Shown here: piece after piece, positions 35,933 to 54,059 of the stretch
Numbering within the stretch: the first letter of the stretch is position 1
Layout: every line of letters starts with the position of its first letter
Assembly: GCA_003157875.1 (NCBI GenBank)
Contig: PMKV01000134.1
Span: 48,992-111,606 of the forward strand
DNA: 62,615 nucleotides
Source of the DNA: Chloroflexota bacterium
Lineage (GTDB): Bacteria; Chloroflexota; Limnocylindria; Limnocylindrales; CSP1-4
Direction of reading: 5' to 3'
Translations under genes and position numbers: made by a program
Notes under the pieces: model-generated
Told to the model about the DNA's origin: nothing
Database searches by the model: none
What the model saw: the letters and a program-made list of their open reading frames with translations, nothing else

Positions 35933-36037
35933 ATGACCTGATAGTGATCGACGAATCGCTCAGGGTCTCCCGGCGACCACCGGGGGCTTTCACACAGCCT
36001 TGGACATGCTTCCCTCGCGACGGCTCTCGACTACTGC
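35933..36037 (+). repeat. 105-bp direct repeat, left copy
   Basis: Identical at 104 of 105 positions, in the same orientation, to 53955-54059. It contains three adjacent hairpins: 35937-35964 (CCTGA...TCAGG with inner AGTGAT/ATCGCT), 35969-35984 (CCCGG-CGACCA-CCGGG) and 35985-35999 (GGCT-TTCACAC-AGCC). The right end holds the first codons of the CHAP-domain gene. The two copies could be the borders of an integrated element. Confidence 0.85.
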
Positions 36038-36941
36038 CAATGTCATTGCCATTGGCGGTTCCCTAGTAGCCGCCAGCCCGGTGGTCGCTGCGGCGGAGGG
36101 GCCGCACGTCATGACTGTGCATACGGTGCACTTGGACATGCCCCCCACGGGAAGCTCGGCCGGGGGTTCGCAATCGAAGCAATTCAGCTTCACCGGCGGC
36201 AGTTACGTCATGACGATCGGCTTCTTCACTTTGAATCCTAACCAGATAGTAGGCAAGCCCCGAAAGAACGCGGGGGGCCAGTACGGTACCCCTGACCCGA
36301 CCGATAACGAGGGGTGGGAGTCGATCGGAAACCAGATGGTGAAACTGGGCGCGGGCACCCAGACAGTGGCATGCACCTTTGGGCCACAGGAGCCTGACCC
36401 CGTCTTGGACCCCGGCCTCTGGGACTACCGCGTGGATTGTTCCATCGGTGGGACGCCGGAGCCTGAGTGGTCCTTCTCCCCGGAGAGGAGTGGCACCTTC
36501 AACTGGCAGGTCTCACTCGCTCCGAGCCCCGCGCGGGTCATCGGCAACACGGCCACAAAGAACCCGTTCGCCGAGGGTCAGTGCACATGGGGAGCGGAGC
36601 AGGAGATGTACTTGGCAACGGGGAAGTTCATGCAGATGACAGGCGACAAGAACAAGAAGAATGCCTATCAGTGGGACTCCACCCTCAACGCCATGAAATG
36701 GGTTCGTAGCCTCACTCCCCAGTCGAGATCCGTGGTTGTCCTCAGTCAGGCGGCAATGCAAAACGCCGATGGCCACGTCGCCTGGGTCGAAGGCGTCGAG
36801 TATGACGACGGCGTCACCTACCTTCACACGATCGAGATGAACGCGCCGGGCTACCCTAACCAGTGGGTATCGGAGCGGCGGGAATACGACGGAGGGACAG
36901 ACAACCAAGTCCCGCGCATGGACTTCATCCTCGCTCCATAG
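36006..36941 (+). CDS. secreted CHAP-domain peptidoglycan amidase/endopeptidase
   Basis: 311 residues from ATG 36006 (a TTG lies at 36000; no ribosome binding site in either case). Signal peptide residues are about 1-30 (TTANVIAIGGSLVAASPVVA). An N-terminal domain of unknown type (about 30-180) has FSFTGGSYVMTIGFFTLNPN and paired Cys. The C-terminal CHAP domain (about 185-305) has the nucleophile in NPFAEGQCTWGAEQEMYL and the His in QNADGHVAWVEGVEYD. It would cut peptidoglycan cross-links or stems. The usual GQCTWYA reads GQCTWGA. The first ten or so codons and the leader belong to the 105-bp direct repeat. Confidence 0.82.
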   Translation: MLPSRRLSTTANVIAIGGSLVAASPVVAAAEGPHVMTVHTVHLDMPPTGSSAGGSQSKQFSFTGGSYVMTIGFFTLNPNQIVGKPRKNAGGQYGTPDPTDNEGWESIGNQMVKLGAGTQTVACTFGPQEPDPVLDPGLWDYRVDCSIGGTPEPEWSFSPERSGTFNWQVSLAPSPARVIGNTATKNPFAEGQCTWGAEQEMYLATGKFMQMTGDKNKKNAYQWDSTLNAMKWVRSLTPQSRSVVVLSQAAMQNADGHVAWVEGVEYDDGVTYLHTIEMNAPGYPNQWVSERREYDGGTDNQVPRMDFILAP

Positions 36942-36989
36942 AAGAACCATCGGGGGATGGTTGACATGACCCACGGCTTCGCGATCGAA

Positions 36990-37014
36990 GGGCCGCCGGC
37001 ACCCCAGGCGGCCC
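36990..37014 (+). terminator. possible terminator hairpin after the CHAP gene
   Basis: GGGCCGCC (36990-36997) pairs perfectly with GGCGGCCC (37007-37014) across nine bases, 48 bases past the CHAP-gene stop. No T-run follows. Confidence 0.45.
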
Positions 37015-37518
37015 CTCGATGCGCCAACCGGGCAGTAGGTGCGCGTCAGTACGTCCGGGGCATCGGTGCGTTTGCGGTGCGGACGGCCACTCGCTCGGCT
37101 CCATGCAAAGCCTCCGGATCAACTCGCCGAAGCATTGCCAAGCTTCGCCCAGGCTGATCTGCGGACCCAGATCCAAGCCACCAGTTGTCAGCGTTCTCAT
37201 TCCGACCCGCAACCGTCGCCGTGTCGGGTCAACGAGCCCCGGCTCAAGTTCCCACTATGGCTGCCTAGTGATCAGATCTGGAAGAACCGCCTCACGGCGC
37301 GCAAGAGACCCCAGGTGAGTCTTCGGTCGGCGCGCTGAACCGACCGGCGCCTGCGCTTTCCAACTGGCATACGAGATCGTGTCGGCTCCGGGGCGAACTG
37401 AGCATCGGAGCCCATGACGTCCCTCCTTGAATAGCCCGTCACTCGCCGAACCGGGAAGGGCCCGGCGAGGGACGCACTTGGTTGCGTGTAGAGCGGTCGG
37501 GCGCCGTTGGGCCGGCGC
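37015..37518. other. gene-free spacer between convergent genes
   Basis: About 500 bp between the ends of the CHAP gene and the fibronectin-III surface gene. Open frames are short, Arg-rich and without start signals. A 9-mer TATGGCTGC at 37256 recurs at 31775 and 34071. Nothing else was recognised. Confidence 0.4.
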
Positions 37519-38916
37519 TCAGGAAGCGTCCGGAAGGCCGGTCGTCGCCGGCGGATCCGGTGTGAGCGCCTTGTCGGGCGCCGCCGACTCGGGCGCCGCA
37601 GTCTCGGCGGTCGTGGCCGTCGCAGGAGAACCGCCCGAGGTTGGCTCACTCGACGGCCCGGCCGCCGGAGCAATCCCACGGCGAGAGCGTCGGTACATCC
37701 AGGCCAGCGCCACGGCGAGCACGACCGCGATGCCGACGACCACGATCAGCCCGATGAGCAGCGCCGTGTTGTCCCCGCCCGAGCCAGTCGTGGACGAAGC
37801 GGCGCCCGGCGCGGTCGATGGCAAGGTCGATGGCGCGTCCGTGGGCAGACCGGGCGGCAGCGTTGCGCGTGCGTCCGGTGTCGCGGGCTTCGACGGCGCC
37901 GAAGCCGGGCCGGTCCCGGCCGCGTTGGTGGCTGTGACCGTGAACGTGTAGGCCGTACCGTTGGTCAGGCCCGTAACCGTGCACCAGAGCTTTCCGTTGG
38001 TGGAGCACGTTGCTCCACCCGGGGTGGCGGTCGCGGTGTATCCGGTGATCGGGCTGCCGCCGTCGCTCGAGGGTGCGGTCCAGGCGACTCGAGCCGAACG
38101 GTGCAGCGCATTGCCGGAGACACCGGTCGGAACTCCGGGGACGGCCGACGCGGCGGCCGACGAGGCCACGGGCGTCGGCGCGGCTGTCGGTGCGGCCGTC
38201 GGCGCAGGCGTCGGTGCGGCTGGCGGTGCGGGTGTCGGCGTGGGTGTCGGCGTGTCGGTCGGGATCAGTTGGAAGATGTACGGGGGAGGGGGCGGCGCCA
38301 CGTACGTCTTGAAGGCGAAGTCTTCGGGGCCCATGCTCATCATCCCGGGGTCAACCCAGCCCCCCACGTTGATCCATGCCTGGTTGCCGCCACCGAGACC
38401 CGAGCTGGCGCCCCAGGCCTCCACGGAGGCGCCGGACTTCTGCGTGTTGAAGACGAGCGCGTAGTGGTCTCCGGCCGTGACGCTGGCCGGCGTCGAAAAC
38501 GGGAAGTCGACCCAGCCCATGGTAGTGGGCACGAGCACATAGCTGGACGTCGCCAGCGGAGTGCCGTCAGGGACATACCCACAACCATGCGCACAATACG
38601 CGCCCTCCAGGGTCACGGTGAGGCCCCCGCTCGTCTTGTTGTTGCTCAGCAGTAACTCGGCATCGGTGAGCTGGCCGGTCTTGCCGGCCGTGAAGATTTG
38701 GGTGACGTCATCCGGGTAGTTCGAATAGCAGCCAGAATTGGGGGTAGTGCACTCAGGACCAGGCAAGGATTGATCCAGCACTGCACCGCCGCCTCTCGCC
38801 AGGCTGCACCCCGGCATCAAGCCCAGCATCAGCAGACCCGCGCATGCCGCAAGCGCACGACGTTTCATGGCCGAATGCCGACCTCGTGCCCCGACCCAGG
38901 ACCCTTCGGAATCCAT
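37519..38916 (-). CDS. surface protein with fibronectin type III domain and membrane anchor
   Basis: 465 residues from ATG 38916 (AAAGGAG nine bases upstream); ATG 38868 would start exactly at the signal peptide [20 protein letters not shown], as in its paralogue at 30090. The order is: signal peptide, an N-terminal Cys-containing beta domain ([34 protein letters not shown]), a [10 protein letters not shown] linker (about 225-260), a fibronectin type III domain ([40 protein letters not shown]), a second linker, the helix [20 protein letters not shown], and a basic then Ala/Thr/Pro-rich cytoplasmic tail. Surface display or adhesion is likely. Its upstream region matches that of the RCC1 gene. 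Confidence 0.83.
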
Positions 38917-39050
38917 TACAACCCGCTCCTTTCCCCCAGCTCGGTCTTCCAAATCCGTCTCTCCGAGCCACAGGCAGCCTCGCCGGCCACTGTAAGAGCG
39001 AGTCTGGTGCCATGCAAGAAGTTGTTTGCGCCGCGTAAGGGCGCGCTTAC
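38917..39050 (-). promoter_or_regulatory. conserved upstream region of the fibronectin-III gene (GTAAG palindrome)
   Basis: GTAAG-GGCGCG-CTTAC at 39035-39050 and a second GTAAG at 38992-38996 are exactly 43 bp apart. A CTCGG-rich segment and the block GGGGGAAAGGAGCGGGTT lie just before the start. Same order and spacing as 33278-33406 before the RCC1 gene, with the rest diverged, which points to selection on these elements. Confidence 0.6.
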
Positions 39051-39275
39051 GAATGCCGGTTCAGTCGGCGCGCAAGGTCGGATCGTCTGGCGGCACCAAC
39101 CCGACATGGTGCCCCTCCTCGCTATGCCATCCAGACCGACCGCCGCCAACGCCGAACTCGATGCACGATGTGGTCATCGTGCCGACGCCAGCCCACTGTT
39201 CCGGTAGGCGAGTGGCGCCTCATCTGACGCTCCCCAAGGGGGGAGGGCGCACGAGCCAAACGAATTGTGGCGGGC

Positions 39276-39312
39276 TGGAGTTCTACGCCGGGAATTGAAC
39301 CGGCCTCTACCG
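39276..39312 (-). other. tRNA 3'-end-like fragment
   Basis: On the minus strand GCCGGTTCAATTCCCGGC is followed by GTAGAACTCCA. The invariant TTCAA loop, a following seven-base strand and an encoded CCA resemble the T-arm and acceptor end of a tRNA gene. The T stem has mismatches in the standard register, and no matching GTTCTAC acceptor strand occurs upstream, so this is at most a fragment. Confidence 0.3.
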
Positions 39313-39385
39313 AAGTCGTCCAGGGGTGCTACTTGTGGACCGATGCTAGCCTGCGCCTGAAGCGCAACGTCAACGGGAGGGAGAC

Positions 39386-40048
39386 GTGATCGATTCGAGA
39401 GGCGCGGACCCAGCGGTCAGATTGAATCAGCGCACACGGCGCGGTGTCCTGGCATGGATAGGGCTCGGCGTTCTTGCCGTATGCGTCCTGGAGTTCCTGG
39501 GCGCTCGATTGTTGATCGTCCAAGGGTTCGATTGGGTCGACCCGGTGATGCTGATCCCAGTCCCGTTGGTCATGGCGATTGGGCTCGGCATAGTGGGGAC
39601 GGTCACGGAGTGGACCATCACAGACAATCAGTTGCGCCGTAGAGGTTGGCTTTCTCGGCCCGGCCGCGAGCCATCCGCCGTCGGGGAGCTCGGTCCACAA
39701 CTCGAGATCGTCCACGAAACCAGGTCTACCTGGCGCATCCGGCCGTACGGACCCGCGATGTACGTGGCGCGCGGTCAAGCCGCATCCCTTGTCGGTGCAA
39801 TGGGGCGGGCCGGAGTGCGCGTCGTCGACTGGCGTGGTGACTGGGAGCGCCGGCATCGGTTGCTCGACAGACTAGGTCTGCTGATCGGGCTGGCCGGCGG
39901 TGTGGGCCTGCTCGTGACGGTCGCACAGGGACCGCTGCGCGCTGTCGGTTTCGCAGCCTATTGCATGTTTTGGGGCGCCCTGATGCTGGGCTTCGCAATC
40001 GACTATCTGCCCTGGAGAATGCGGAGGAACCCAGCTCAAGTCGGCTGA
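39386..40048 (+). CDS. membrane protein of unknown function
   Basis: 220 residues from GTG 39386 (GGGAGG five bases upstream). Membrane helices are at about 20-45 (GVLAWIGLGVLAVCVLEFLG) and 54-73 (PVMLIPVPLVMAIGLGIVG), with a pair at about 160-205. The central cytoplasmic part (about 75-150; WTITDNQLRRRGWLSRPG, VARGQAASLVGAMGRAGVRV) has the layout of a bacterial PH-like module between helices. No partner gene; function unknown. Confidence 0.7.
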   Translation: MIDSRGADPAVRLNQRTRRGVLAWIGLGVLAVCVLEFLGARLLIVQGFDWVDPVMLIPVPLVMAIGLGIVGTVTEWTITDNQLRRRGWLSRPGREPSAVGELGPQLEIVHETRSTWRIRPYGPAMYVARGQAASLVGAMGRAGVRVVDWRGDWERRHRLLDRLGLLIGLAGGVGLLVTVAQGPLRAVGFAAYCMFWGALMLGFAIDYLPWRMRRNPAQVG

Positions 40049-40093
40049 TCGGCCTGGCTCTGCCCCGGACGAGGGCGGGAGAGTAGTGAGACG

Positions 40094-40939
40094 ATGCTGG
40101 TATCGACCAATGGCGCGGTCTGGACAGACCTCAACGAGACGAAGGTCTTCGGCCCTGGCGGTCTCGGCGGTGTTTCCGGTGGCGGCTCCGGCTTCGCCGG
40201 CCTGGGCTTCGTCGACAACAAGCAGGTCCTTTGGACTTCGCAGGACGGGCTGACCTGGCAGCGGCGAGCGCTGCCAGACGAACTGACGCAGTCCGGGGCC
40301 AGCGCCGCCAACCCGGCTTCGATCGATGGCGCGGTGGTCCTGCCAGGTGTGCGCCTGGAGTCCGGTCCCACCATCTCAAGCGCCTCCGGCTTTGCTCCCG
40401 GTGCGGGGGTCCACAGCTGTGCGACCGGCACCGGCCCAGACGCCACTCCGATATATGCGCCGGCCCTTTACGACTCCTCGGATGATGGCGCCAGTTGGGC
40501 GGCGGTCACCCTCCCGGGGGCCGCGGACGCTATCTACGTGTCGCTGTCCCTGGTCCGGCTCAACGACCACACCCTGATCGCCATAGAGTGGTACCAACAA
40601 GGCAACGTCGGTCCGAACTGGCTGTATTGGATCTCCTCGGACGGGTCGAACTGGAAGCCAGTCTCCTTTGTTCCGTTGGCCAACTTCTCGTTCCCAATGG
40701 CCTTGCCGGCCCATGAGGGCGGGCTCTTCTATTCCACTATGGATTGTCCCCCAGCCGGTTACTGCCACTTAGTCCTCAGCATGTACGCGCTGTCTGCGGA
40801 CGACCACATCGTCACGCTGGACCAAGCCGGCGACATTCCGCCGGTGAATCCGGGCCCGGGAGTCGAATTGGCAATCGGCCCGGCGGGCGTCCTGGCCAGC
40901 GATGGTGGCTCCAATATGTGGCTCGGCGCCAGGACCTGA
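40094..40939 (+). pseudogene. BNR/sialidase-type protein, probably 5'-truncated
   Basis: 281 residues of Asp-box-like propeller sequence: LVSTNGAVWTDLNETKVFGP, QVLWTSQDGLTWQRRALPD, YDSSDDGASWAAVTLPGA, LYWISSDGSNWKPVSF. Related proteins are exported and carry an N-terminal signal peptide; here the frame begins inside a blade and has none. GGGAG lies 12 bases before ATG, so expression of a shortened cytoplasmic protein is possible, but a truncated remnant is more likely. It resembles the smaller frameshifted fragment at 15414-15747. Confidence 0.55.
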
Positions 40940-41261
40940 TCCCCTCGCGTCTCCACGGAACCAAGTCCGCCCTGCTGGCCTGCGGTTTCGCTCTATTTGG
41001 TCATGGTTGGGCGGCATCGAGCTCGACAACGGGATAACCGCCAGAGTGGTCGCAGCGTTGGGCTCAACAGTCCGTCCCGCTGCCATCGACCGTTCTCGGA
41101 TCTGCCCGCCACACTCCGGCCGCCTACGCCCACGGTCTGGCATTGGCCTTGCCAGAACAGGTTGCAATGGCGCGCCCGACAGGATTTGGACCACCGTTAA
41201 CCACCAGGATTCCGCTCGAGTTCCGAGGTGAGTGGCTGGCAGCTGCGGAGGCCAAGTCGGC
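40940..41261. other. gene-free spacer before the phage-like module
   Basis: About 320 bp without a supported frame, repeat or hairpin. The promoter of the methyltransferase gene should be here; no clear element was seen. Confidence 0.35.
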
Positions 41262-42494
41262 ATGACCGCCCTCGCCCTCCTCACTGTCGAGCAGGTCCCG
41301 ATCGATCTGCTCCGTCCCGACCCGGCAAACCCACGGCGCATCAGCGACGAGGAACTCGACTCCCTGGAGCGGAGCCTCCGCCAGTTCGGATTCGTCCAAC
41401 CCGTTCTCGCGCGCAAGGATGACGGCACCGTCATCGGTGGCCACCAGCGCCTCCTGGCTGCTCGGCGACTCGGGCTGACCACCGTTCCCGTGACTTGGCT
41501 CGATCTGTCCGTGGACCAGGCGCAACTGCTCAACCTGGCGCTCAACAAGATCTCCGGCTCCTGGGACGAACAGCTCCTGGCCCGAATGCTGGCCGACCTG
41601 GAGGCCAGCCCGAGCATCGACTTGACCCTTTCAGGCTTCGGCGAGGACGAGATCAAGGATCTGCTCCATTCCTTGGAGACGCGAGAGAAGAAGGAGCGGG
41701 CGGAAGACTTCGATCTGGACTCCGCTCTGGAAGATGCAGCCCGCACTCCACGGACCAAACCTGGCGACCTATGGGCCCTGCGTGACCATCGCCTTCTGTG
41801 TGGTGACGCCACTGTGGCCGAGAACGTGGAGAGGCTCCTAGTCGGGGCTAAGGCCGCGATGGCGTTCACGGACCCGCCGTACAACGTCAGCCTCGGCGAC
41901 CACGGTGGCCAGCAACGGGGAGCCCGCAAGCGCCGCATCGCCAACGACTCGATGGATCCGATCGCATGGGAGATATTCGTCCGGGCCTGGGGCCGGAACC
42001 TCCTCACCAGCGTGGACGGCGCCATCTACGTCTGCATGTCCAGCAAGGAGATGCCACTAGTCTCCCGAGTCCTAGCCGAAGAAGGCGGCCACTGGAGTGA
42101 CACGCTGATCTGGAGAAAGGACCGGTTCGTTCTCGGTAGAGCCGACTATCAGCGGGCATACGAACCGATCTGGTTCGGCTGGCGGGAAGGTGCCTGCCAC
42201 CACTGGTGCGGCGATCGAGACCAGGACGACGTCTGGGAGATCAACCGACCATCGGACGCTCCGCTCCACCCAACGATGAAGCCTCTTCCGTTGATGGAGC
42301 GTGCGATCGCTAACAGCTCCACTCCGGCAGATCTGGTCCTCGACATGTTCGCCGGCTCAGGGAGCACCCTCATCGCCTGCGAGCGGACTGGCCGACGCTG
42401 TGCGGCGCTCGAACTCGATCCCCGCTATGCGGACGTGATCCTGGCCCGCTTCGAGAGGTTCAGCGGCGAGACTGCGAAGAGGATCGATGGCTAG
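41262..42494 (+). CDS. ParB-domain DNA methyltransferase (phage type)
   Basis: 410 residues from ATG 41262 (GGAGG ten bases upstream; GTG 41232 is an alternative). An N-terminal ParB/Srx-like nuclease domain (1-100) contains GGHQR (59-63). A class-beta N4-cytosine/N6-adenine methyltransferase domain follows, with catalytic DPPYN (204-208) before the AdoMet motif DMFAGSGST (361-369). This fusion is common in prophages and integrative elements, where it modifies element DNA or blocks host restriction. Its 3' end overlaps a convergent HTH gene by 35 bp. There is no cognate nuclease beside it, so it is probably an orphan enzyme. Confidence 0.9.
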   Translation: MTALALLTVEQVPIDLLRPDPANPRRISDEELDSLERSLRQFGFVQPVLARKDDGTVIGGHQRLLAARRLGLTTVPVTWLDLSVDQAQLLNLALNKISGSWDEQLLARMLADLEASPSIDLTLSGFGEDEIKDLLHSLETREKKERAEDFDLDSALEDAARTPRTKPGDLWALRDHRLLCGDATVAENVERLLVGAKAAMAFTDPPYNVSLGDHGGQQRGARKRRIANDSMDPIAWEIFVRAWGRNLLTSVDGAIYVCMSSKEMPLVSRVLAEEGGHWSDTLIWRKDRFVLGRADYQRAYEPIWFGWREGACHHWCGDRDQDDVWEINRPSDAPLHPTMKPLPLMERAIANSSTPADLVLDMFAGSGSTLIACERTGRRCAALELDPRYADVILARFERFSGETAKRIDG

Positions 42495-42663
42495 GGCGAC
42501 CGGGCTTGCCCAGGCTGGTAGCTCGGTATCGCTCCAGCTCCTGCGTGGTGATGACGTAGGTCTTGCCGAAGAGCCGGGCGGCAAGTCTCCCGCCCTGGAC
42601 CTGGTGGCGCAGGGTCGCTGCGCTAATGCCGAGTTCGGCTGCTGCCTCGGTGAGGGTCAACAT
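42460..42663 (-). CDS. excisionase-like MerR/HTH_17 DNA-binding protein
   Basis: 67 residues. MLTLTEAAAELGISAATLRH followed by GGRLAARLFGKTYVITTQEL is the winged-helix pattern of HTH_17/excisionase-family proteins (helix-turn-helix, wing Gly, then ELERYR). The basic tail reads RPSHRSSSQSRR. Such proteins direct excision or act as small repressors. ATG 42663 has GGGAG upstream. It ends inside the convergent methyltransferase gene (35-bp overlap) and lies three bases after the next gene, the last of three on this strand. Confidence 0.82.
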   Translation of the reverse strand: MLTLTEAAAELGISAATLRHQVQGGRLAARLFGKTYVITTQELERYRATSLGKPGRPSHRSSSQSRR

Positions 42664-42666
42664 CCC

Positions 42667-42909
42667 CTACTCCCCCTCGGGCTCGGCCATGAGATCGGAC
42701 TCGATCTCGGAGAGCCAGCCCTCCAGGCACTGCCCCCCGCCTTCGTCGGTACCCATCCCGACCTGGTAGGCATCCAGGCGGTAGGTGTTGTAGCCGGCGT
42801 GGCGGAGGGTGCGCTGGTACTCGGTCCAGCGGTCGGTCCATTCCTGCCAGGCCGCACGCACTTCTTCGAGTTCGTCGCGAAGCTCGTTGGCCTTGTCGGT
42901 CGTGATCAT
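42667..42909 (-). CDS. small charged protein of a phage-like module
   Basis: 80 residues: a long amphipathic helix (MITTDKANELRDELEEVRAA, WQEWTDRWTEYQRTLRHAGY) and an acidic C-terminus (EIESDLMAEPEGE). AAGGAG five bases before ATG 42909 is a strong ribosome binding site. It sits between two other small genes with gaps of nine and three bases, typical of an early phage operon. No family recognised; a coiled-coil partner protein is plausible. Confidence 0.65.
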   Translation of the reverse strand: MITTDKANELRDELEEVRAAWQEWTDRWTEYQRTLRHAGYNTYRLDAYQVGMGTDEGGGQCLEGWLSEIESDLMAEPEGE

Positions 42910-42918
42910 GGCTTCTCC

Positions 42919-43143
42919 TTACTTGGCTTCGGGGGCGTACTCGCCCTCGTTGAAGAGGCGGTCGCTGAGGGCCTGGAGCATCCGGCGGGTCTCGACCATG
43001 TCGCCGACGTGGCCCCAATGGATCTGCTCGGGAGCCGGCGCGTCGTCGTGGTTCTCGATCGCCTCGTGAATGCGCTCGATCAAGACGAGGGCATCGGCGT
43101 GGGCCGCCATATAGGCATCGAGGGCGGTGGGCTTGGTCGGCAT
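42919..43143 (-). CDS. small helical protein of a phage-like module
   Basis: 74 residues, all helix-forming: ALDAYMAAHADALVLIERIH, ENHDDAPAPEQIHWGHVGDM, ETRRMLQALSDRLFNEGEYA. AAGGAG six bases before ATG 43143 marks the start. First of three genes reading leftward from the 43196-43227 palindrome, so it is probably under that element's control. Function unknown. Confidence 0.65.
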   Translation of the reverse strand: MPTKPTALDAYMAAHADALVLIERIHEAIENHDDAPAPEQIHWGHVGDMVETRRMLQALSDRLFNEGEYAPEAK

Positions 43144-43195
43144 CTGGGTCTCCTTGGTGGCTTTTGCTGGTCACATACACGCTCGGTACCGGCCA

Positions 43196-43227: not shown

Positions 43228-43465
43228 GGGGGTAGGCGCGGCGAAACGAGGGCGCGCGTGGGACGCGGAAGCGACGCGTTGGGCAACCAGCCAAGCCCTG
43301 CGCAATCGGCCCACGTGAGGGCCGTGTCGGGCCCACGCGCGGCAGGGGCGGAAGGAGCCAGCGTGCGGTGTGGGCCCAGCAGAAACCGACACGATGGCGA
43401 GATAGCGACCCGCCGCTCTCTGACGGCCGCTCCGTCAGCGGCCGCTGACAACCGTTGGTAATGCG

Positions 43466-43885
43466 ATGGTAATCAGACGCCGCTGCTCCTTCGCCAAGAC
43501 CGACGGCGAAGCCTGCGCCATGGCGCCCCTGCACGACCGGCCCTACTGCTTCAGCCACGATCCCGAGCGGGCGGCAGACGCAGCCGAGGCACGACGACTC
43601 GGTGGTCTGCGCCGGCGCAAGGAGGGCACGATCGCGGTCGCCTACGACTTGCCCGGGCTCGACAGCGTTACCGGCATACGTCGGCTCCTCGACGTCGTGG
43701 TCACCGATGGGATCGGTCTCGACAACGGCATCCCCAGGCTTCGAGTCCTGATCTCGACTGCTGTCGCCGCAACCAACCTGCTCAAGGTCGGCGAGTTCGA
43801 GGACCGTGTGGCGGCCCTGGAGGCCGCGATCGCTCACGGTCAGTCCGACGAGGACGCCGCCTTCGGGGCCGAGGAGAACCGATGA
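43466..43885 (+). CDS. small Cys/His-motif protein upstream of a coupled gene
   Basis: 139 residues. The N-terminus RRCSFAKTDGEACAMAPLHD followed by RPYCFSHDPE has three Cys and a His (C-x9-C-x10-C-x2-H), a zinc-knuckle-like pattern found in many small phage or integrative-element proteins. RRLGGLRRRKEG is a basic stretch, probably nucleic-acid binding. The second half is helical (RRLLDVVVTDGIGLDNGIPR, EFEDRVAALEAAIAHG). Its stop overlaps the ATG of the next gene (ATGA), so the two are translationally coupled. It may play a terminase-small-subunit-like or DNA-packaging role, but that is a guess. Confidence 0.68.
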   Translation: MVIRRRCSFAKTDGEACAMAPLHDRPYCFSHDPERAADAAEARRLGGLRRRKEGTIAVAYDLPGLDSVTGIRRLLDVVVTDGIGLDNGIPRLRVLISTAVAATNLLKVGEFEDRVAALEAAIAHGQSDEDAAFGAEENR

Positions 43886-44697
43886 CACTGGAACGCCGAC
43901 TCGACGGCATCGAGAAGAACCTATCTCCTACTCAGCTCGTCCTGCGCTGGCTGGCCGAGGCTCATGCCTTCGGGAGCCTGGAAGCCTACGTTGGCTCGCT
44001 CCTGGATCTACCCGGCAACCAGCAGCCGATCGACCGTCTCTGCCGTGACGCCCACGACGGTGTCCGGGCGAGCCTGCGAGGCAAACGGCCCGAAGTCGTC
44101 GATGCCGCGGTCCGGAGCGCTCTGCGCGAGACCGTGTTTCGGTATGAGCTGGTGCTGGGCATCTACGTGGCCGCAAAGGAGCTGCTGGATCGCGAGACGT
44201 TGCTCGAAGCTCTCTTCGCTTCCCAGCTGGCTCTGCTCGTGAGGGACGAGCGCAACCAACGCCCCGCGGATGAGTCGCATCTTGCGTACCTGGGTCAATG
44301 CCGTGATCTCACCGCCGGGGCGGTGAGCGAGTTACTGGCGGCCCAGGCTGCCCGAGCCACTGTCGAGGCCCGCTACCTACAAGGCCAGGCAGCCCTCTTC
44401 CCGGACGTGGCCGAGGCGTTCGACGACCAAGTCCGTCGCAGTCAACAACTCGCGGAGATGGCAGCCGACATGGCCGAACTGGATGGCGTCGAACCGGAAG
44501 AGAGAGGCGAACCCGCTGCACCCGCGTGGCGAGTGGACCAGCTTGTTGCCGATCTCGTGGAACCGGCCAGGTCTACCGCCCTGGAGAAGCTCGGCGAGGG
44601 TTCGAGAGCGCTCAGCATCGCCAGCGACTGGCTGAAGACGAAGTTCTCGGCCGGGTCAGTCGCGATGGATCGGCCAGATGCCGCCGCCCAGGCATGA
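43882..44697 (+). CDS. helical protein of a phage-like module
   Basis: 271 residues, almost entirely helical, soluble and acidic, starting MTLERRLDGIEKNLSPTQLV. GAGGAG five bases before ATG 43882, and overlap with the previous gene, give a firm start. Segments include AHAFGSLEAYVGSLLDLPGN, LVLGIYVAAKELLDRETLLE and QAARATVEARYLQGQAALFP. No catalytic motif was recognised. Coupling to the Cys/His protein suggests they form a complex. It is followed by a cluster of palindromes. Confidence 0.65.
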   Translation: MTLERRLDGIEKNLSPTQLVLRWLAEAHAFGSLEAYVGSLLDLPGNQQPIDRLCRDAHDGVRASLRGKRPEVVDAAVRSALRETVFRYELVLGIYVAAKELLDRETLLEALFASQLALLVRDERNQRPADESHLAYLGQCRDLTAGAVSELLAAQAARATVEARYLQGQAALFPDVAEAFDDQVRRSQQLAEMAADMAELDGVEPEERGEPAAPAWRVDQLVADLVEPARSTALEKLGEGSRALSIASDWLKTKFSAGSVAMDRPDAAAQA

Positions 44698-44713
44698 TGT
44701 CCAGCCCTCAGCT

Positions 44714-44897: not shown

Positions 44898-44946
44898 GAG
44901 GCTCCAGCTCGCGCTCTCGGTCGGAGACCGAAGCGCGCACCCTCCG

Positions 44947-47119: not shown

Positions 47120-47591
47120 GGTGCTCCTCCTCGCCGTGCACATCCGACTTGGACGTCGTGTGGTCCGGGTCACGGCCCTCACAGACTACCATCCCAAATG
47201 GCGCCCTCGATGCGCCCGTGGGAGGAATTCGCTCAGTAGCCTCGGCGAGTGGCGAGCGAGCATTCACACACGGTTGCGTTCTCCGCCGTTGGGCCCGTTG
47301 ACCCTGATCCTGGGGCCTCCCCCCAGATGCGGTCTTCGAGTTGGACACGGCACCGACAGCACGTGCGAGCTCGGCGGCGGAGAGTGGCAACTGGACTTGC
47401 CGCGAGCCAGAAAGGCCAGCCAAGGAATAAGCCTTACGCTTCGCCGGCCAGAGTACGGCCGCCCTCCTACGACTCCAAACCGCCAGGATCTGTTGGTGGG
47501 TGATTGATCGGGGCTCGTCGGGCTGAGGGTCAAATCGACACCATGAAACCATCGTGTCGCAACCCACCGCTCTGGCTGCCGCTGTCGAGCG

Positions 47592-47641
47592 TCTGCCTTC
47601 CAAGCTGAATGTCGCGGGTTCGAGACCCGTCTCCCGCTCCA
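47592..47641 (+). pseudogene. 3' half of a tRNA-Gly(UCC) gene
   Basis: Anticodon arm TCTGC-CTTCCAA-GCTGA (one mismatch), variable bases, T-arm GCGGG-TTCGAGA-CCCGT, acceptor strand CTCCCGC, T and encoded CCA. No GCGGGAG acceptor strand is found upstream, so only the 3' half is present, as left by tRNA-targeting integration. The spacer before it (47120-47591) has no gene but holds a 24-bp near-palindrome, CGACACCATG-AAAC-CATCGTGTCG (47536-47559). It is on the opposite strand to the other four tRNA-Gly pieces. Confidence 0.75.
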
Positions 47642-47673
47642 CTTCCCTTTTCCAAGCTCAGCCTTCCCTTGAC

Positions 47674-48276
47674 TTACTTGGGTGGCTTCACCTGCACAAC
47701 CCCGAGTTCCGCCTGGATGGCTTCCTCGAATGCGTCCAGTGCATCCCGGCCGGCCCTGTCTACTGCCTCCCACCCGGGTACGTCGCCAGGGATCAGCCGG
47801 TAGCCACCCCGCTCCCCTTGGACGGCAAAACCCAGCACGCTATCCATGGCAACGTCCAAGCGGTCGGTAGCCTTGCGAGTGTCTGGCTGGCGGCTAATGA
47901 GGCGCAATTCCCGCACCCATCGGCCCCAATCACGCGGCATCTGCACCGTCACGTCAGTCGGCATGTTGCCCTTCTGGCGGCCGAATACCTCGGAGTCCAC
48001 CCCGATGAGCGTGGCGTCGGCGGCCTGCGCTATGGAGATGGCGAGTTCACGGACCCGGTCAGCGAACCGGGCAGCCCGCACCTCCTCCCGGTCGGCGTCA
48101 GCCATCTGCTTGGCGGCCAGGGCCGACTCGCGGGCCGCGTCCGCTGCAATCTTGGCTGCCTCCCGTGCCGACCCTGCGCTGATCCGTCCCCCGATCGCGA
48201 CGCCAGCCAACCCCGTCAGCGCGGCCCCCGCGAGGCCGAGGACGGCTGCCAGAACGGTGGCCAGACTTTGATCCAT
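47674..48276 (-). CDS. membrane/coiled-coil protein, third of three paralogues
   Basis: 200 residues. One N-terminal membrane helix (about 5-28, ATVLAAVLGLAGAALTGLAG) then IGGRISAGSAREAAKIAADA and a long coiled coil (ARESALAAKQMADADREEVR) leading into FADRVRELA. The C-terminal helical domain keeps WVRELRLISRQ and DAFEEAIQAELG. The same elements occur in the two genes upstream, so the three arose by duplication. No enzyme motif. The ATG lies only three bases after the previous stop, so it is in an operon; its 3' end is 33 bases from the tRNA-Gly fragment. Confidence 0.7.
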   Translation of the reverse strand: MDQSLATVLAAVLGLAGAALTGLAGVAIGGRISAGSAREAAKIAADAARESALAAKQMADADREEVRAARFADRVRELAISIAQAADATLIGVDSEVFGRQKGNMPTDVTVQMPRDWGRWVRELRLISRQPDTRKATDRLDVAMDSVLGFAVQGERGGYRLIPGDVPGWEAVDRAGRDALDAFEEAIQAELGVVQVKPPK

Positions 48277-48279
48277 GGC

Positions 48280-48885
48280 CTAGCCTTCGCCCGCTTCTAG
48301 TTCGACCGGCGGCCGGCCGAGTTCGGTTCGGAAGGCAACTTCGAATGTCGCTACCGCGTGTTCGTATGCCGTGACAACCGACTCCCACAGGTCGTCCTTG
48401 GGACTACCGACCGTCCTCGTCCCGTACACATAGCCGAGTTTCACCCAGGCCGTCGTCAGGCCCTCCACCGCGTCATAGGCAACCTGGGTTCTAACCAGCA
48501 GCCGCAGTTCCTGGCCCACCTGTCCAACAGTGACGGCGGGTTCCGGGTTTGGCACCTTCCTGCCCTCACCTCGTTCCACCGCCCACGTCCAGGTCAGCAA
48601 ATGGCGGTCCGCCACGTCCAACATCTGCGCCGCCAGTTCGCGAACACGATCGGCGAATCGGGAATCTCGCGCGTCGCGAAGATTCTCAGTCGTCGTCTGC
48701 CGGGCAGCCCAAGCGGTAATTCCGGCGCCAAGAACGCCGCCAGCCACCCCCGCCCCGCCGCCCACCAGTGCGCCCTGGACGGCCGGGTCGTTGATCCGCA
48801 CGCCCAGCAAGGCTGCCCCTGCAAAGCCGACCACAGCCGCGGCAGCCGCGACCAGGACCACAGCCCAACGTCCGCGGTTGCTCAT
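48280..48885 (-). CDS. membrane/coiled-coil protein, second of three paralogues
   Basis: 201 residues. Two N-terminal membrane helices (about 8-28 and 38-60, separated by a Gly-rich turn) replace the single helix of its paralogues. Then TENLRDARDSRFADRVRELA matches the coiled-coil exit of the other two, followed by VGQELRLLVRTQVAYDAVEG and ATFEVAFRTELGRPP. The ATG overlaps the stop of the upstream gene (ATGA at 48882-48885), giving translational coupling. A membrane-tethered signalling or structural role is possible, but no family is recognised. Confidence 0.7.
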   Translation of the reverse strand: MSNRGRWAVVLVAAAAAVVGFAGAALLGVRINDPAVQGALVGGGAGVAGGVLGAGITAWAARQTTTENLRDARDSRFADRVRELAAQMLDVADRHLLTWTWAVERGEGRKVPNPEPAVTVGQVGQELRLLVRTQVAYDAVEGLTTAWVKLGYVYGTRTVGSPKDDLWESVVTAYEHAVATFEVAFRTELGRPPVELEAGEG

Positions 48886-49553
48886 GTTCGAGGGGAGTCG
48901 GGATCGTGATTTGCCGTAGACATGCTCGCCGGCAGGCTAGGCGGTATGGGCAGGACGGGAATCCGTTGAATGGGTGGGCGCCCGAGTTCCACGCGGATGG
49001 CGTCCTCAAACTTCAGCGACTCGTCAATCCATGCCCGGTATGCCTGCCGCCAGTCGTTCACGTTTTCCGCAGTAGGGTGACTCACGACGATGTTGACGAG
49101 GTACGCGAAGAACAGCGTGCCCATGAACTTCCCGATACCTTCGTAGGTTCCGAGCAAGCGGACCAGCAGCCGCAGTTGTTGGGCTGTCCTGGCGATCGAG
49201 GCCAGTTCCACGGCCGGCCACTCGGGGACATCGCGCTTCGAGACAGCGGCCACCACCGCGGCGTCACACGAGGTCATGTAGCGTCTGGCGTCGTCGAGTA
49301 GCTGCGAGGCCAGTTCTCGGACCCGATCCGCGAAAAGGGCGGCCCTGGCTTCCTCCCTGTCCGCGTCCGCGGTTTCCTTGGCTATGGCGGCAGACTCCCG
49401 CGCCGCGTCGGCGGAGGACTTGGCGGTGTCGCGCGCGGCGTTGCCGCTGATCCGACCACCGACCACCACACCGCCAAGGCCGACAACGGCGACCAAGACG
49501 ACTCCGGCCAGCGTGATGAGTGCCGCGAGAACGATCGCCCACCCTTGGTCCAT
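48882..49553 (-). CDS. membrane/coiled-coil protein, first of three paralogues
   Basis: 223 residues from ATG 49553, which gives MDQGWAIVLAALITLAGVVL and so aligns with the MDQ start of the third paralogue; a longer frame to 49601 is less likely. One membrane helix, GGRISGNAARDTAKSSADAA, a coiled coil ending ADADREEARAALFADRVREL, then AQQLRLLVRLLGTYEGIGKF, a hydrophobic patch (MGTLFFAYLVNIVV) and FEDAIRVELGRPP. First gene of the three-gene operon. No ribosome binding site was seen, so it may be leaderless. Confidence 0.7.
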   Translation of the reverse strand: MDQGWAIVLAALITLAGVVLVAVVGLGGVVVGGRISGNAARDTAKSSADAARESAAIAKETADADREEARAALFADRVRELASQLLDDARRYMTSCDAAVVAAVSKRDVPEWPAVELASIARTAQQLRLLVRLLGTYEGIGKFMGTLFFAYLVNIVVSHPTAENVNDWRQAYRAWIDESLKFEDAIRVELGRPPIQRIPVLPIPPSLPASMSTANHDPDSPRT

Positions 49554-49986
49554 GCCGCGATTGTCGCAGGACCGGCTGACTGTGACCGACCGAACCTGCA
49601 CCGTGTGCAGCGGCCCAATGCCCGCCGACGTCCGACGGGATTGACATAGCGCCTACTGCAACCCGCCTTTTGCAAGGCTGCGTTCAACGCCCGATACCGA
49701 TCCGCTGCCACGATGTCCGACTGCCACTCCCGATCACGCCAAATCTGGCGGGATCGAGTTTCCCGCTCGTGCAAGCAGCGCCCTCGATATGGTCCAGCAT
49801 GTGGTCATGGCCGAATGTGCACGATGGCTGCATTGTCGGCACCAGACCGGACGCGCAGGAATAGGGCTCACACGACACGGGTGACTGTGCGGAGCGGCGA
49901 GTGCCAGTTTTCAGCTGCACGGTCTTCGGACGGAGTCGATCGCCGTTGATGACTGTTGCCGCTTCGGCCGCCGGTGGCCTGGACTC
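49554..49986. other. gene-free spacer
   Basis: About 430 bp upstream of the three-paralogue operon and downstream of the anti-sigma-like gene. No supported frame. The only repeat seen is a GATGGCTGC variant at 49826. The promoter of the three-gene operon should lie near 49560-49650. Confidence 0.35.
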
Positions 49987-50697
49987 CTAGAAATGCGGTT
50001 GATCCAACTCCCCGCTGATCGCTCCGGTTGCGTCGCGGGCGACGATCCTGAGGATCTTGCCTCGTTCCGGCCACCAGGCTAGGTAGAAGCCATGGCCTAG
50101 GCTGGCTGTGACATCCGCGCCGGACTCCAGCTCGACATCGACAGTCGTAGCCAGTGTCCCCGAATGCCCGATCACCATGTCGAAGCTGTCTGAACCCCCG
50201 GCCCCGATGAGGAAGTCGAGTCTTGAGCTATCCGTCGAAGTGAAGCGCCCGTACGAGGAAGTCGCGCTCCCCACGGTTCCGGAGCGGTCCCAGTAGAACC
50301 GGCACGTAGCGTTGTTGGTTCCATCCGTGAAGAGGGCCACCGCCCCGTTTCCACGACCATCGACCACGCTGAAGGGGAGACCGAAGTCTATCGGTCTGCT
50401 CGCAAGCGTCTTGTCTGAAACCACGCCATTGCCGCAGGTAGCCTCGGCTCGGGCAATCAGCACAGAGTCCTGGGGAAGCGGTACTGCCGTCCAAGCGTCT
50501 ACTGGCTGAACGGCCGATCCGTCCGGGCGAAGCAAGAGGAAGCCGGCGAGCAGAACCGCCACAACGAGGCTGGCTGCGCGGAGTAGCAGCCACCGGCCGC
50601 CACGGTTCTTTCTGGCTCCTACGAGTTCGGGCCGAGTCGGGACTGAGATGTCCGCGAAGGCCGAGCGTATTCGTTCGGAGAGCGCATCATCGTCCAT
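49987..50697 (-). CDS. probable anti-sigma factor/membrane regulator of the ECF sigma
   Basis: 236 residues from ATG 50697 (GAGG about seven bases upstream). The cytoplasmic head (about 1-35, DDALSERIRSAFADISVPTR) lacks a zinc HxxxCxxC motif. One membrane helix follows (LLLRAASLVVAVLLAGFLLL) and an extracytoplasmic beta-rich domain with two cysteines (about 60-236; DSVLIARAEATCGNGVVSDK, GTVGSATSSYGRFTSTDSSR). Its start overlaps the end of the sigma gene by 11 bp, the usual sigma/anti-sigma arrangement, so it probably holds the sigma factor until an envelope signal arrives. The assignment rests on context. Confidence 0.68.
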   Translation of the reverse strand: MDDDALSERIRSAFADISVPTRPELVGARKNRGGRWLLLRAASLVVAVLLAGFLLLRPDGSAVQPVDAWTAVPLPQDSVLIARAEATCGNGVVSDKTLASRPIDFGLPFSVVDGRGNGAVALFTDGTNNATCRFYWDRSGTVGSATSSYGRFTSTDSSRLDFLIGAGGSDSFDMVIGHSGTLATTVDVELESGADVTASLGHGFYLAWWPERGKILRIVARDATGAISGELDQPHF

Positions 50698-51226
50698 CGT
50701 GGTTCCTCGTATTCGGTGTCGGCTCGAGTCGCTGTCGAAGCCTTGCAAGCGCCCGATGCAGATGGGCCGTCACCGCGCCTTCCGTTATGCCCAGCGACAA
50801 GGCCGTGCCTCGTGTGTCTAGTCCAATGAGGATGCGGAGCGCAACGACCTGGCGCTGTCGCAGAGGCAGCGCCGCGACGGCGCGAATCACATCGGGGTCC
50901 GCAACGCGTGACTCATCCAGAATTGACATTCCGGCTGCCAGTGGCAGGAGTCGCTGAATTCGCCGCCACGACGAGACGGCATCGTTTAGGGCGACTCGGA
51001 TGACCCACGCGATCGGCTTCTCTTGTCCAGATACGGCGTCCCAACGTTCCAGAGCGCGCAGGTAGGCATTAGCGACTGCGTCCTCGGCCGCCTGCCGGTT
51101 ACGCGTGACGACCAGCACCGCCCTGTACACAGCGGGGTAGGTGGCCTCAAAGAACTCGTGGAATGCCGGCGATCGCTCCTCCGACACTTCGACTGGCCTC
51201 GTCGTCAGACTGATCGTTGCCTCCAT
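50687..51226 (-). CDS. ECF-family RNA polymerase sigma factor
   Basis: 179 residues. Region 2 (about 20-90): FHEFFEATYPAVYRAVLVVT, AEDAVANAYLRALERWD and the -10-binding KPIAWVIRVALNDAVSSWRR. Region 4 (about 118-170): ALPLRQRQVVALRILIGLDT, ALSLGITEGAVTAHLHRALA, RLRQRL. It directs polymerase to a small regulon, probably including its own operon. The ATG has only a weak AGGAC site. A perfect 12-bp palindrome GAGGGGCCCCTC (51242-51253) lies just upstream and may be an operator. It is coupled to the membrane protein gene downstream. Confidence 0.9.
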   Translation of the reverse strand: MEATISLTTRPVEVSEERSPAFHEFFEATYPAVYRAVLVVTRNRQAAEDAVANAYLRALERWDAVSGQEKPIAWVIRVALNDAVSSWRRIQRLLPLAAGMSILDESRVADPDVIRAVAALPLRQRQVVALRILIGLDTRGTALSLGITEGAVTAHLHRALARLRQRLEPTPNTRNHDGR

Positions 51227-51284
51227 GTCCTATCAACGTTTGAGGGGCCCCTCGCACTTACACGCCCGCAGAAATCGGCGAATG

Positions 51285-52970
51285 TCAGAAGACTCCCTCA
51301 GGGTCATCAACTCGACCGGCCAGATACGCCGCCAGGTAGAACCCCTGCAGATCCATGACATTGTCGGGCGAAGCTGCCGGATAGTGCCAGTAGCCTCGGT
51401 CGTCCGCGAATAGGGCTGAGACCTCGCTCCCGCCTGCGGAGAGTTGGCCCAGTCTCCGCGCGATTGCGTTTGAGAACAGGTCTGGTTCGTGGCTCGCATC
51501 TGAGCTGAACGCCCCGGACGCCAGCCGTCGTGTGCCAACGTAGTCCTTCGATCGAGCGCACGTGTCGTTCAGACCGAGTGCCTGCCCCCACAACCAGGCC
51601 GCGTATGCCTCAGGAACGGAACCGAACGTCGCGGCCGACACGTACGAGGGTGCGAGGGCAGGTCTGATTGGCAGTCCAATGAGTGGGGCCATGGCGGCGA
51701 AGCTGAGGGTGTCCGTGTCGCCTGAGCTCAGCTTGGAGGCGCGGTTTCGCAATGCGGTGACTACTCCCTCGGGAATCGGCCGGCCGAGCGACTTGGCGAG
51801 CGAAACGATGAAGTAGGCGCGCCGGCCCTCGCCCCCTTTCACACCGCCCTGTGCAATTCCATCCAGCCAAGCGGACTCTTCAGCCGAGACCGCTTTCTGG
51901 TCGAATGCTTGCCCGGTGGAACGGGCCAGCATCACCCCAAAGTAAGTCGTCTCCGGGTCGGGTACGGGTGCCTTCTGCATCCATCCAGAAGGGCCCGCTG
52001 AGGAAGAGATAGTCTCCAGTCCTCGATCCGGGACGGTCCATCCGAGTTCGATCGCCATCCAGGTGGCATGAGGATCCCCCAGAGAAGGTTGAGATGACGT
52101 AGCGATCAAACCATCGGAGAGGGCACCCGGACTTGCCGAAGGGGCGGGGATTTCGATCGCAATGCCGTTATCCCTGGCGATCTGCTTCACGGCTGCCCGC
52201 ACAGTCAAATCGGCGGGCGACACATCCTGGTGGGTTGCGCCAACAAGCTCCTCCAGCCGTAGGGCAAGATTCTTGGCTTCACGAGCGCGTGTTCCTTGGT
52301 CGAGGGAACTATCGGCGACCTGCCAGACTGGGATTATGTGGTCGAGGCCCTCGGCGACGGGTTGAGGACTGTCTGTAACTCCCGGTAGCTCGTGGTCAAC
52401 CTTGGTGGCAACCTCGCTCGGGATCTGGATGCCCATAAGTGTCAAGAGTCCCGTCGCCCGAGCGGTCGCCGTCCAATCGGTAGGCTGACTTGGAGCCCAA
52501 CGGTACAGTCCACCGTCTCGGAACTGTTCGAGAGATCGGCTCACATCGTCCGCACCGGGCGGTCGGCCCAGATCAACCAGGGCGCTGACCGCGAGACTCA
52601 GATTCTCAAGCGGGGGCAGTCCGTCCGCGGGTTGTGGATCTCTGACGATTGCATCGAGCCACTCCTGGCAAGCTGATGGCACAAGCCCGACGGGCGTAAT
52701 CCTCAGGGCGGACGCCGCATGAAGCATCCAACTGGTTCTGTACAGGGAAGGCTGCGCGGCCAGATTCGGGATGGAGCTGTATCCGCCCGCATCCTGCGCG
52801 GTCCAGGTCCAACTCTCCTGAAGGTAGGCCGACAGGGCGGAGTCAGGGTCGGCCACCACCAGAGGAGATGAAGTGGGGAGCGAACACGCATTCACGACGG
52901 CCAGGCAGACGAACGCTAATGCGGCCGCCTGCCTGGGCCAGCCGGGGCGGAACGTTGGGCCGAGACCCAT
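51285..52970 (-). CDS. large lipoprotein, possible alpha/alpha-toroid fold
   Basis: 561 residues. Signal peptide with lipobox VVNAC (Cys29). The mature protein is mostly helical with recurrent segments of the style YRTSWMLHAASALRI, NLSLAVSALVDLG, TDWTATARATGLLTLMG, ATWMAIELGW and RRAYFIVSLAKSLGRP. This repeated pairing of Trp/Tyr-rich turns with Ala/Leu helices is like squalene-cyclase/alpha-2-macroglobulin toroids, without the cyclase DxDD or the thioester CxEQ. It stands 58 bases upstream of the sigma gene on the same strand and may be co-transcribed or belong to the sigma regulon. Substrate unknown. Confidence 0.68.
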   Translation of the reverse strand: MGLGPTFRPGWPRQAAALAFVCLAVVNACSLPTSSPLVVADPDSALSAYLQESWTWTAQDAGGYSSIPNLAAQPSLYRTSWMLHAASALRITPVGLVPSACQEWLDAIVRDPQPADGLPPLENLSLAVSALVDLGRPPGADDVSRSLEQFRDGGLYRWAPSQPTDWTATARATGLLTLMGIQIPSEVATKVDHELPGVTDSPQPVAEGLDHIIPVWQVADSSLDQGTRAREAKNLALRLEELVGATHQDVSPADLTVRAAVKQIARDNGIAIEIPAPSASPGALSDGLIATSSQPSLGDPHATWMAIELGWTVPDRGLETISSSAGPSGWMQKAPVPDPETTYFGVMLARSTGQAFDQKAVSAEESAWLDGIAQGGVKGGEGRRAYFIVSLAKSLGRPIPEGVVTALRNRASKLSSGDTDTLSFAAMAPLIGLPIRPALAPSYVSAATFGSVPEAYAAWLWGQALGLNDTCARSKDYVGTRRLASGAFSSDASHEPDLFSNAIARRLGQLSAGGSEVSALFADDRGYWHYPAASPDNVMDLQGFYLAAYLAGRVDDPEGVF

Positions 52971-53004
52971 GGCCTAGGTCAGCCCTATCGGGCTGGAATC
53001 AAGA

Positions 53005-53814
53005 TCACGGGATCACGTAGCTCGCCGTGTTGGCCCACCATGAGCCACCCAAGTTTATGTGATAGGTCGACGTCTCAGTGAAGCCATTGAGACTGTAGCC
53101 TTGCACGTGGATCCCATAGGTGTAGTTGTAGACGTTCCATGACTGTTGCCCGGTGATCGCGTCCGGGCAGTAGCTGTACCCGTTCGTGATGGGCGAGAAA
53201 CCAACGCCCCCGCCAGCCGGAAGCGAGAACGTGACGCCAGTCATTGCCCAGCCGGAAGCGGTCCATGTGTCGCAGTTCTGGATCGAGTCGGCGTTCCAGG
53301 GAATCTGGCCCCCCCAGTAGGTCCTAGAGACCGTGTCGAGATAGATGTCTTGGGGGTAGCCGGTCCAGGGATTGTTGTTCGTGAGCGTGATGTTGCTGCG
53401 AAAGCCGGTGTAGAGAGTGCCACCGTTGTTGGGGTAGCCGGGGGCATACCCCCAGTTGGACGCCCCAGCCGACATCGTGCAGGCGCTTGACACCTGGAAG
53501 ATGTAGCCGCTCGGGACCACGTTGCGGCAGTCCGTGTTCCAATTAGTGACCGAACTGGAGCTGGCCGTCACTGACGACGCGACTCGCGGATCACTCGTCG
53601 TGGCCAGTCCCAGAGCAACTGCTTGTGACTGAGACAGATCAGCATTGACCTTGGTTCTAAGCCTCGGATCGTTGGTGATGACCACTACGGTGCCCGTCGA
53701 GTTCCGAGACACGACCCTTACACCCGCAGCCGTGGTCGGCCCAGCAGCTGAGACTGGAGCCGTTCCTGCGATCATCAGCGCCAGGGCGCAGATTGGCACA
53801 ACCAATCGTTTCAT
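53005..53814 (-). CDS. secreted protein of unknown function
   Basis: 269 residues from ATG 53814 (AGGAGG five bases upstream). Signal peptide MKRLVVPICALALMIAGTAP cut near VSA-A. A short N-terminal region (RVVSRNSTGTVVVITNDPRL, LSQSQAVALGLATTSDPRVA) precedes a beta-rich C-terminal domain with four cysteines and many Asn/Tyr/Trp (GYIFQVSSACTMSAGASNWG, DIYLDTVSRTYWGGQIPWN). Probably an extracellular binding protein. It lies 34 bases upstream of the toroid-like lipoprotein gene, same strand, so it may be in the same transcript. Confidence 0.75.
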   Translation of the reverse strand: MKRLVVPICALALMIAGTAPVSAAGPTTAAGVRVVSRNSTGTVVVITNDPRLRTKVNADLSQSQAVALGLATTSDPRVASSVTASSSSVTNWNTDCRNVVPSGYIFQVSSACTMSAGASNWGYAPGYPNNGGTLYTGFRSNITLTNNNPWTGYPQDIYLDTVSRTYWGGQIPWNADSIQNCDTWTASGWAMTGVTFSLPAGGGVGFSPITNGYSYCPDAITGQQSWNVYNYTYGIHVQGYSLNGFTETSTYHINLGGSWWANTASYVIP

Positions 53815-53954
53815 TGGATCCTCCTCAAAGTTGCGACCCGGGGTCTCGCCCCATTTGATCCGCCAGTCGAGTATCAGATGACGGAGGGAAGCAGGCGAAT
53901 AGGCATAATGCCGTAGAGGGCTCCACGCGTGAGTGTCAGCGCAGTCCTAACCCC

Positions 53955-54059
53955 ATGACCTGATAGTGATCGACGAATCGCTCAGGGTCTCCCGGCGACC
54001 ACCGGGGGCTTTCACACAGCCTTGGACATGCTTCCCTCGCGACGCCTCTCGACTACTGC
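53955..54059 (+). repeat. 105-bp direct repeat, right copy
   Basis: Identical to 35933-36037 except for one base (C for G near 54045), same orientation, about 18.0 kb away. The right end covers the stop codon and last residue of the zinc-ribbon gene at 54053-54961; the three hairpins of the left copy are conserved here. Read on the minus strand it follows that gene and may act as its terminator. Confidence 0.85.

Follow-up and report, generated by a model that had tools for sequence, protein, structure and literature searches.

Integrons have a tyrosine recombinase gene whose start is preceded by a site and, on the same side, by an array of cassettes, and we know of no conserved slot order in them. 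In Tn916/Tn1549, a tyrosine recombinase uses variable 6-bp coupling sequences, which are derived from the target and need not match. In the dif (pdif) modules of Acinetobacter, genes are flanked by tyrosine-recombinase sites whose spacer is 6 bp long, and single modules have replaced one another where the left and right spacers match (PMC13141974). These dif systems use host XerC and XerD, have unlike half-sites and modules of alternating orientation, and lie on plasmids. Tycheposons have a tRNA gene at the border and an XerD-like recombinase (PMC10872708).

We analysed a window of 62,615 nucleotides, the whole stretch of DNA given above (C6:48992-111606; a C6 position is the window position plus 48991). 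The nearest known systems are the dif modules and integrons, and the present system is neither. Like dif, it has gene modules between putative tyrosine-recombinase sites with a 6-bp spacer. It differs in that a recombinase gene, scoring below the XerC/XerD cut-offs, lies beside a site, in that both half-sites fit one pattern, and in that the sites keep one orientation (93/95) and a conserved spacer order in islands on chromosomal Chloroflexi contigs. As in integrons, the cassette array is 5′ of the recombinase (80 vs 8 sites) and in one orientation (51/51), but the recombinase is not of the IntI type (39.7 bits against the integron integrase profile TIGR02249, cut-off 265). The islands are tRNA-bordered with an XerD-like recombinase, as are tycheposons; here, however, the tRNA-adjacent recombinase is of the serine type, and the array of spacer-typed sites lies inside the island. 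In contrast to Tn916/Tn1549, the same 6-bp spacers recur in order. Among the literature matches listed, judged by title and the start of the abstract and mostly outside subscription papers and preprints, none described a platform that has a recombinase of its own and keeps its addresses in a conserved order, and none described such arrays in Chloroflexi.

Sequence comparison makes it likely, in our judgement, that cassettes are swapped between matching-spacer sites in islands at tRNA-Arg, and that the two copies of a 105-bp repeat in the window are left cassette ends in the GACCTG slot of two head-to-tail islands. The sites, the repeat copies and the genes next to them are:

25325–25348, plus strand: site GGAACG, exact core, at which a tRNA-Gly 3′ fragment is cut short
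28125–28148, plus strand: site GACTCC, 1 core mismatch
35744–35906, plus strand: C-terminal remnant of a serine recombinase, directly left of copy 1
35926–35949, plus strand: site GACCTG of copy 1 (CACGAT-GACCTG-ATAGTG), 1 core mismatch
35933–36037, no strand: repeat copy 1, left edge inside the GACCTG site
36000–36941, plus strand: CHAP-domain protein, start inside copy 1
39161–39184, plus strand: site GTGGTC, core exact
43387–43410, plus strand: site GGCGAG, weak, 3 mismatches over two 9-base half-sites
47536–47559, plus strand: site GAAACC, no mismatch to the 9-6-9 pattern
53948–53971, plus strand: site GACCTG of copy 2 (CCCCAT-GACCTG-ATAGTG), 2 core mismatches
53955–54059, no strand: repeat copy 2, left edge inside the GACCTG site
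54053–54985, minus strand: zinc-ribbon protein, the sole called gene between the sites at 53948 and 55137
55137–55160, plus strand: site CGCTGG, core exact
55166–62573, minus strand: SLFN/AlbA protein and type I restriction-modification genes, from the CGCTGG site to the next recurrent-spacer site at C6:112055

The eight sites were picked by recurrent spacer, which left out matches at 34065, 34106, 39091 and 56313 and a 1-mismatch match near 48645; the last is inside a called gene. All eight lie outside called genes, as do 25% of window positions.

The two repeat copies are on the same strand and 104/105 identical, as the first-pass annotation had reported. The sole mismatch (CGG/CGC) is synonymous in the CHAP frame. 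The edges are sharp: the best local matches in the flanking 400 bp covered 9 columns upstream and 14 downstream, and ungapped extension to 119 bp lowered identity to 94%. Identity runs rightward from AT-GACCTG for 105 bases with one mismatch, and leftward the copies have nothing in common, as exchange within the spacer would be expected to produce. The annotation's link between the repeat and element borders holds at the left edges, which coincide with candidate recombination sites; at the right edges (36037 and 54059) no recombination site was seen. As the annotation described, the CHAP gene starts within copy 1, and the right end of copy 2 covers the final bases of the zinc-ribbon gene. Copy 2 carries the CHAP gene start as well, cut after about 11–13 codons. 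Its cassette spans 53.95–55.14 kb and shares only 97 bp beyond the spacer with copy 1. A GACCTG cassette end probably moved between the islands and would then have undergone a deletion or an illegitimate join to the zinc-ribbon gene. Inside the zinc-ribbon gene (54540–54694), a sequence is repeated three times in tandem with a period of 51 bases; the copies are 98% alike and encode a Pro/Gln/Tyr-rich stretch.

We searched for the repeat elsewhere. In its own genome, the 105-mer matched twice and no more (draft of 185 contigs, 75% complete). Positions 35900–36060 gave one match among 60 relatives (27 bp in G022, E 0.0045), which we took as unrelated. Searching 106 other genomes of the family with the CHAP protein gave no relative at E 1e-8, so an empty site could not be sought through it. 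An exact 37-mer of the repeat had 0 matches in IMG/VR, and the repeat matched none of the phage and plasmid records (near mode), which ruled out a phage or plasmid sequence within these collections. A known RNA was ruled out by an RNA search with no hit at E up to 5.

In the strongest rival reading, the repeat has no connection with the sites and came about through a chance illegitimate duplication or through misassembly. That the sequence is a MAG, that the right edges have no site and that there are only two copies would fit such an origin. However, the left edge falls within a site, and the spacer of this site is present in five other genomes of the genus (G010, G011 in three places, G012, G016 and G017), and similar short flanks starting at the spacer occur at CACCCG sites: two G011 contigs share 67 bp from the spacer onward (91% alike), and G011:C60 and G015:C67 share 28 bp (96% alike). 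We regard this explanation as unlikely.

The 18-kb interval between the repeat copies crosses a boundary between two putative islands, whose parts in the window are:

24615–41192, no strand: putative island A, decayed, left part lost
41008–41192, plus strand: island A/B boundary, with the decayed end of a serine recombinase next to a 3′ fragment of tRNA-Arg (near 41.17–41.19 kb)
41193–62615, no strand: putative island B, window part, extending to the tRNA-Arg at C6:123543-123615
41262–42494, plus strand: ParB-domain DNA methyltransferase, left-arm marker of an island
43466–44697, plus strand: two left-arm genes, which also follow the methyltransferase in G009, G015, G016 and G017

An island at tRNA-Arg is expected to have a tRNA 3′ fragment at one end and an intact tRNA with an integrase at the other. 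Both ends are present, with an intact tRNA-Arg(CCG) and a serine recombinase at C6:121.9-123.6 kb, which suggests integration at this gene. From left to right, island B contains the methyltransferase, the two small genes, GGCGAG (weak), GAAACC, GACCTG (copy 2) and CGCTGG in the window, followed by GCGAAC, CCGCGC, GTGGTC, a tyrosine recombinase, a DnaB-like protein and the serine recombinase. The spacer GGCGAG also occurs near the same methyltransferase in G009 and G015. The site order in island A is GGAACG, GACTCC, GACCTG (copy 1) and GTGGTC, and its positions 24615–24663 are 82% like 44453–44502 in the left arm of island B. G017:C48 shows the same tandem plan. Scaffold gaps lie at C6:111607-111608, 111905-111906 and 122150-122217, and the genomes compared are drafts. 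Because islands A and B are in tandem and each has a GACCTG slot, the 18 kb runs from this slot in one putative island to its counterpart in the other.

The first-pass annotation had instead proposed one mobile or excisable 18-kb island with the 105-bp repeats as attachment sites. The repeats are direct and the spacers at both left edges are equal, so two such sites could in principle excise the interval, and to that extent the proposal stands. A single island is not supported, however: the serine-recombinase remnant and tRNA-Arg 3′ fragment at 41.0–41.19 kb form a boundary within it, further sites lie inside at 39161, 43387 and 47536, and parts of it occur separately in relatives. The methyltransferase named in the proposal is present; the segment ORFs scanned gave no excisionase or integrase hit. 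One of two small ORFs on the minus strand (42667–43143) matched a PHROG, of unknown function. A single 18-kb element is very improbable.

We then return to the reading of cassettes swapped between matching-spacer sites. The site pattern, CACSAT-N6-ATSGTG, consists of palindromic half-sites around a 6-bp spacer, with both C and G at the S positions of either half-site, paired or unpaired. The exact core occurred 125 times in 21 genomes of the genus and the reversed pattern once. We tested gaps of 2 to 12 with CGNCACSAT-N-ATSGTGNCG in about 468 kb of loci not chosen for sites. At ≤1 mismatch, gap 6 gave 5 matches, gap 10 gave 1 and the other gaps 0; at 2 mismatches gap 6 was less prominent (12, with 8 at gap 4), and at 3 it was not prominent (37, with 64 at gap 7). 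Among 107 family genomes, 188 exact sites were in the 16 with the recombinase and 126 in the 91 others; of these 91 genomes, in which no recombinase was detected, 41 had no site and 10 had 5–9. At the GACCTG site of G016 and G010, 770 bp were common at 97% up to the site, and nothing was found past it. Two sets of pattern matches were set aside. G011:C66:1468, considered as an empty site for window position 17590, was judged to be a coding stretch that matches the pattern by accident. Viral contigs with GACCTG (17 loci) or GGAACG (4 loci) had one site each and no recombinase in the examined stretch, and were taken as chance.

The tyrosine recombinase (C6:116147-117124) is to the right of the window, 13 kb right of copy 2. 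In profile searches it resembled XerA/XerC/XerD with scores far below the cut-offs. It has the superfamily residues R-K-HxxR-H-Y: R172, R173, K198, H269, R272, H295 and Y304 are each conserved in no fewer than 34 of the 35 sequences in the alignment (two of which are the query itself), and we take these to have the corresponding catalytic roles. A site with ≤3 mismatches ended 16–26 bp before query codon 1 in 24/30 recombinase loci (16/30 at ≤1 mismatch, 11/30 exact); the other 6/30 had no such site at this distance, and some of these 6 are fragments. On 18 recombinase contigs, the 80 upstream sites (≤1 mismatch) were spread over 330 kb and the 8 downstream over 187 kb, and 5 of these 8 were in G017:C68, where a second array and recombinase come next. 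G066:C64 shows the plan best, with eight sites within 27 kb upstream and none in 19.5 kb downstream. The gene-side DNA of TTGGTC sites was alike (77–84%) at 5/6, and the other side was unlike. Beside the same flank, the recombinase-adjacent spacer may be GGGCGA or GCCGCG instead of TTGGTC; similarly, G013 and G015 have the same flank with CAAGCC and GGAGTC. Ten recombinase loci are outside the family (L251-L260); L255 and L259 had an upstream site with 1 mismatch, and the others had 2 or more mismatches. In L236 (G103:C60), four extra recombinase C-terminal ends, 1.3–2.6 kb apart, lie left of a fuller copy (positions 3667, 6289, 7916, 9814 and 11100); these may form an additional array, based on the 3′ end of the gene. 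A catalogued viral sequence, IMGVR_UViG_3300039412_001175 (L261, L262), has one full and one partial recombinase of the same family (88%/85% identical).

Spacer direction on recombinase contigs was uniform (55/55 overall; 51/51 for the 14 spacers seen at least twice), and 93/95 recurrent-spacer sites within contigs had one orientation. Spacer order was only moderately conserved over whole contigs, where 45 comparisons agreed and 24 did not (24/5000 shuffles as high); with exact sites alone, unsplit, 4 agreed and 6 did not. Because contigs often hold tandem islands, we split them at the methyltransferase or the recombinase, located by protein search, with the split lists made by hand, and 32/35 cross-genome comparisons then agreed (0/20000 shuffles as high). 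The lists drop one-site parts (the first array of G017:C68, both halves of G015:C45 and the G017:C42 site after the recombinase), G002:C17, whose spacer has no orientation vote, and the inverted CTGCTC sites of G011:C50 and G011:C52. The two CTGCTC sites of G017:C48 were assigned one to each side of the split. Copy 2 was entered in the neighbour-pair test and is absent from the 32/35 order test. Neighbouring spacer pairs were repeated in 17 genome pairs (shuffle means 4.7 and 5.5; 0/5000 as high in each of two shuffles).

We compared cassette contents at matching addresses. Of 342 same-spacer site pairs across genomes, 329 were without homology, in DNA or by tblastx, in the 600 bp to each side, and 9 of the 13 with flank homology belonged to the recombinase spacer. 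Among 77 cassettes (≤9 kb), 11 neighbouring address pairs were found in at least 2 genomes, and a comparison between genomes of the cassettes at these pairs gave no homologous ones. Conversely, 13/15 homologous cassette pairs in different genomes had neither address in common. These data suggest that addresses stay while cargo changes, and that cargo also changes address, which is the main weakness of a strict spacer rule. For spacer matching there are the order and the same-spacer junctions; against it are differing spacers beside the same flank and cassettes with neither address in common. In the window, three adjoining genes at 47674–49601 are of similar build, with an N-terminal hydrophobic segment by eye; the first and third are 67% alike in DNA, and none had a Pfam or PADLOC hit.

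The proposed island plan is a tRNA-Arg 3′ fragment, the ParB-methyltransferase, two small genes, and an array of cassettes separated by CACSAT-N6-ATSGTG sites, then the tyrosine recombinase, whose start codon is closely preceded by a site, the DnaB-like protein, and the serine recombinase beside tRNA-Arg. The tyrosine recombinase would bind the half-sites and exchange strands across the 6-bp spacer, and sites with equal or nearly equal spacers would recombine best, possibly through circular intermediates. As the half-sites are alike, we propose that the spacer alone gives direction and matching, so that cassettes could be lost, gained or replaced while the spacer order stays. That the palindromes are instead operators of an island-encoded regulator and the repeat a plain duplication, with no recombination at the sites, is highly doubtful: the sites are palindromic and mostly intergenic, with one copy just upstream of the recombinase start codon, but such a role leaves unexplained the conserved direction and order of the 6-bp spacers and the homology ending at sites.

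A broader claim, which we judge to be evenly balanced, is that cassette exchange in these islands is a natural form of ordered recombinase-mediated cassette exchange, with heterospecific sites, 6-bp spacers as addresses, and one slot swapped without disturbing the others. If true, integrons would not be the only chromosomal cassette platform: uncultured Chloroflexi would have another, whose cargo includes defence genes (type I restriction-modification) and which has slot order as an added rule. It would explain how these islands can renew their content and remain colinear, and it would make available, for a single enzyme, recombination sites that are orthogonal to one another.

We also observed a second type of array, made of tRNA-Gly(TCC) 3′ halves, many with CGACACGATAACTGGACACG at a fixed 74 bases before. 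In 7 genomes of the genus, an intact tRNA-Gly(TCC) is followed downstream by such halves, which all point the same way and recur every 0.7–6 kb. In the window they lie at 25339, 26488, 28051 and 29632 (minus) and 47595 (plus); the array also occurs at L035 (8.9–13.7 kb) and L068-L078. The arm includes the half-site CACGAT, and its 13 named-genome loci are titled Chloroflexi bacterium (12) and Cellulomonas (1). We rejected the 105-mer as such an arm: scored on all 21 columns, it held rank 21 in the window, though the inner 10 bases came third. In 8 of 13 loci (L108-L120), a member of a second tyrosine recombinase family has a tRNA gene no more than about 0.4 kb away, and the tRNAs differ (Ala, Val, Gly, Thr, Arg). 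A c-di-GMP-II-GAG riboswitch is present at 33566–33650 (minus; 60 bits, gathering score 40), upstream of an RCC1-repeat protein at 31889–33328.
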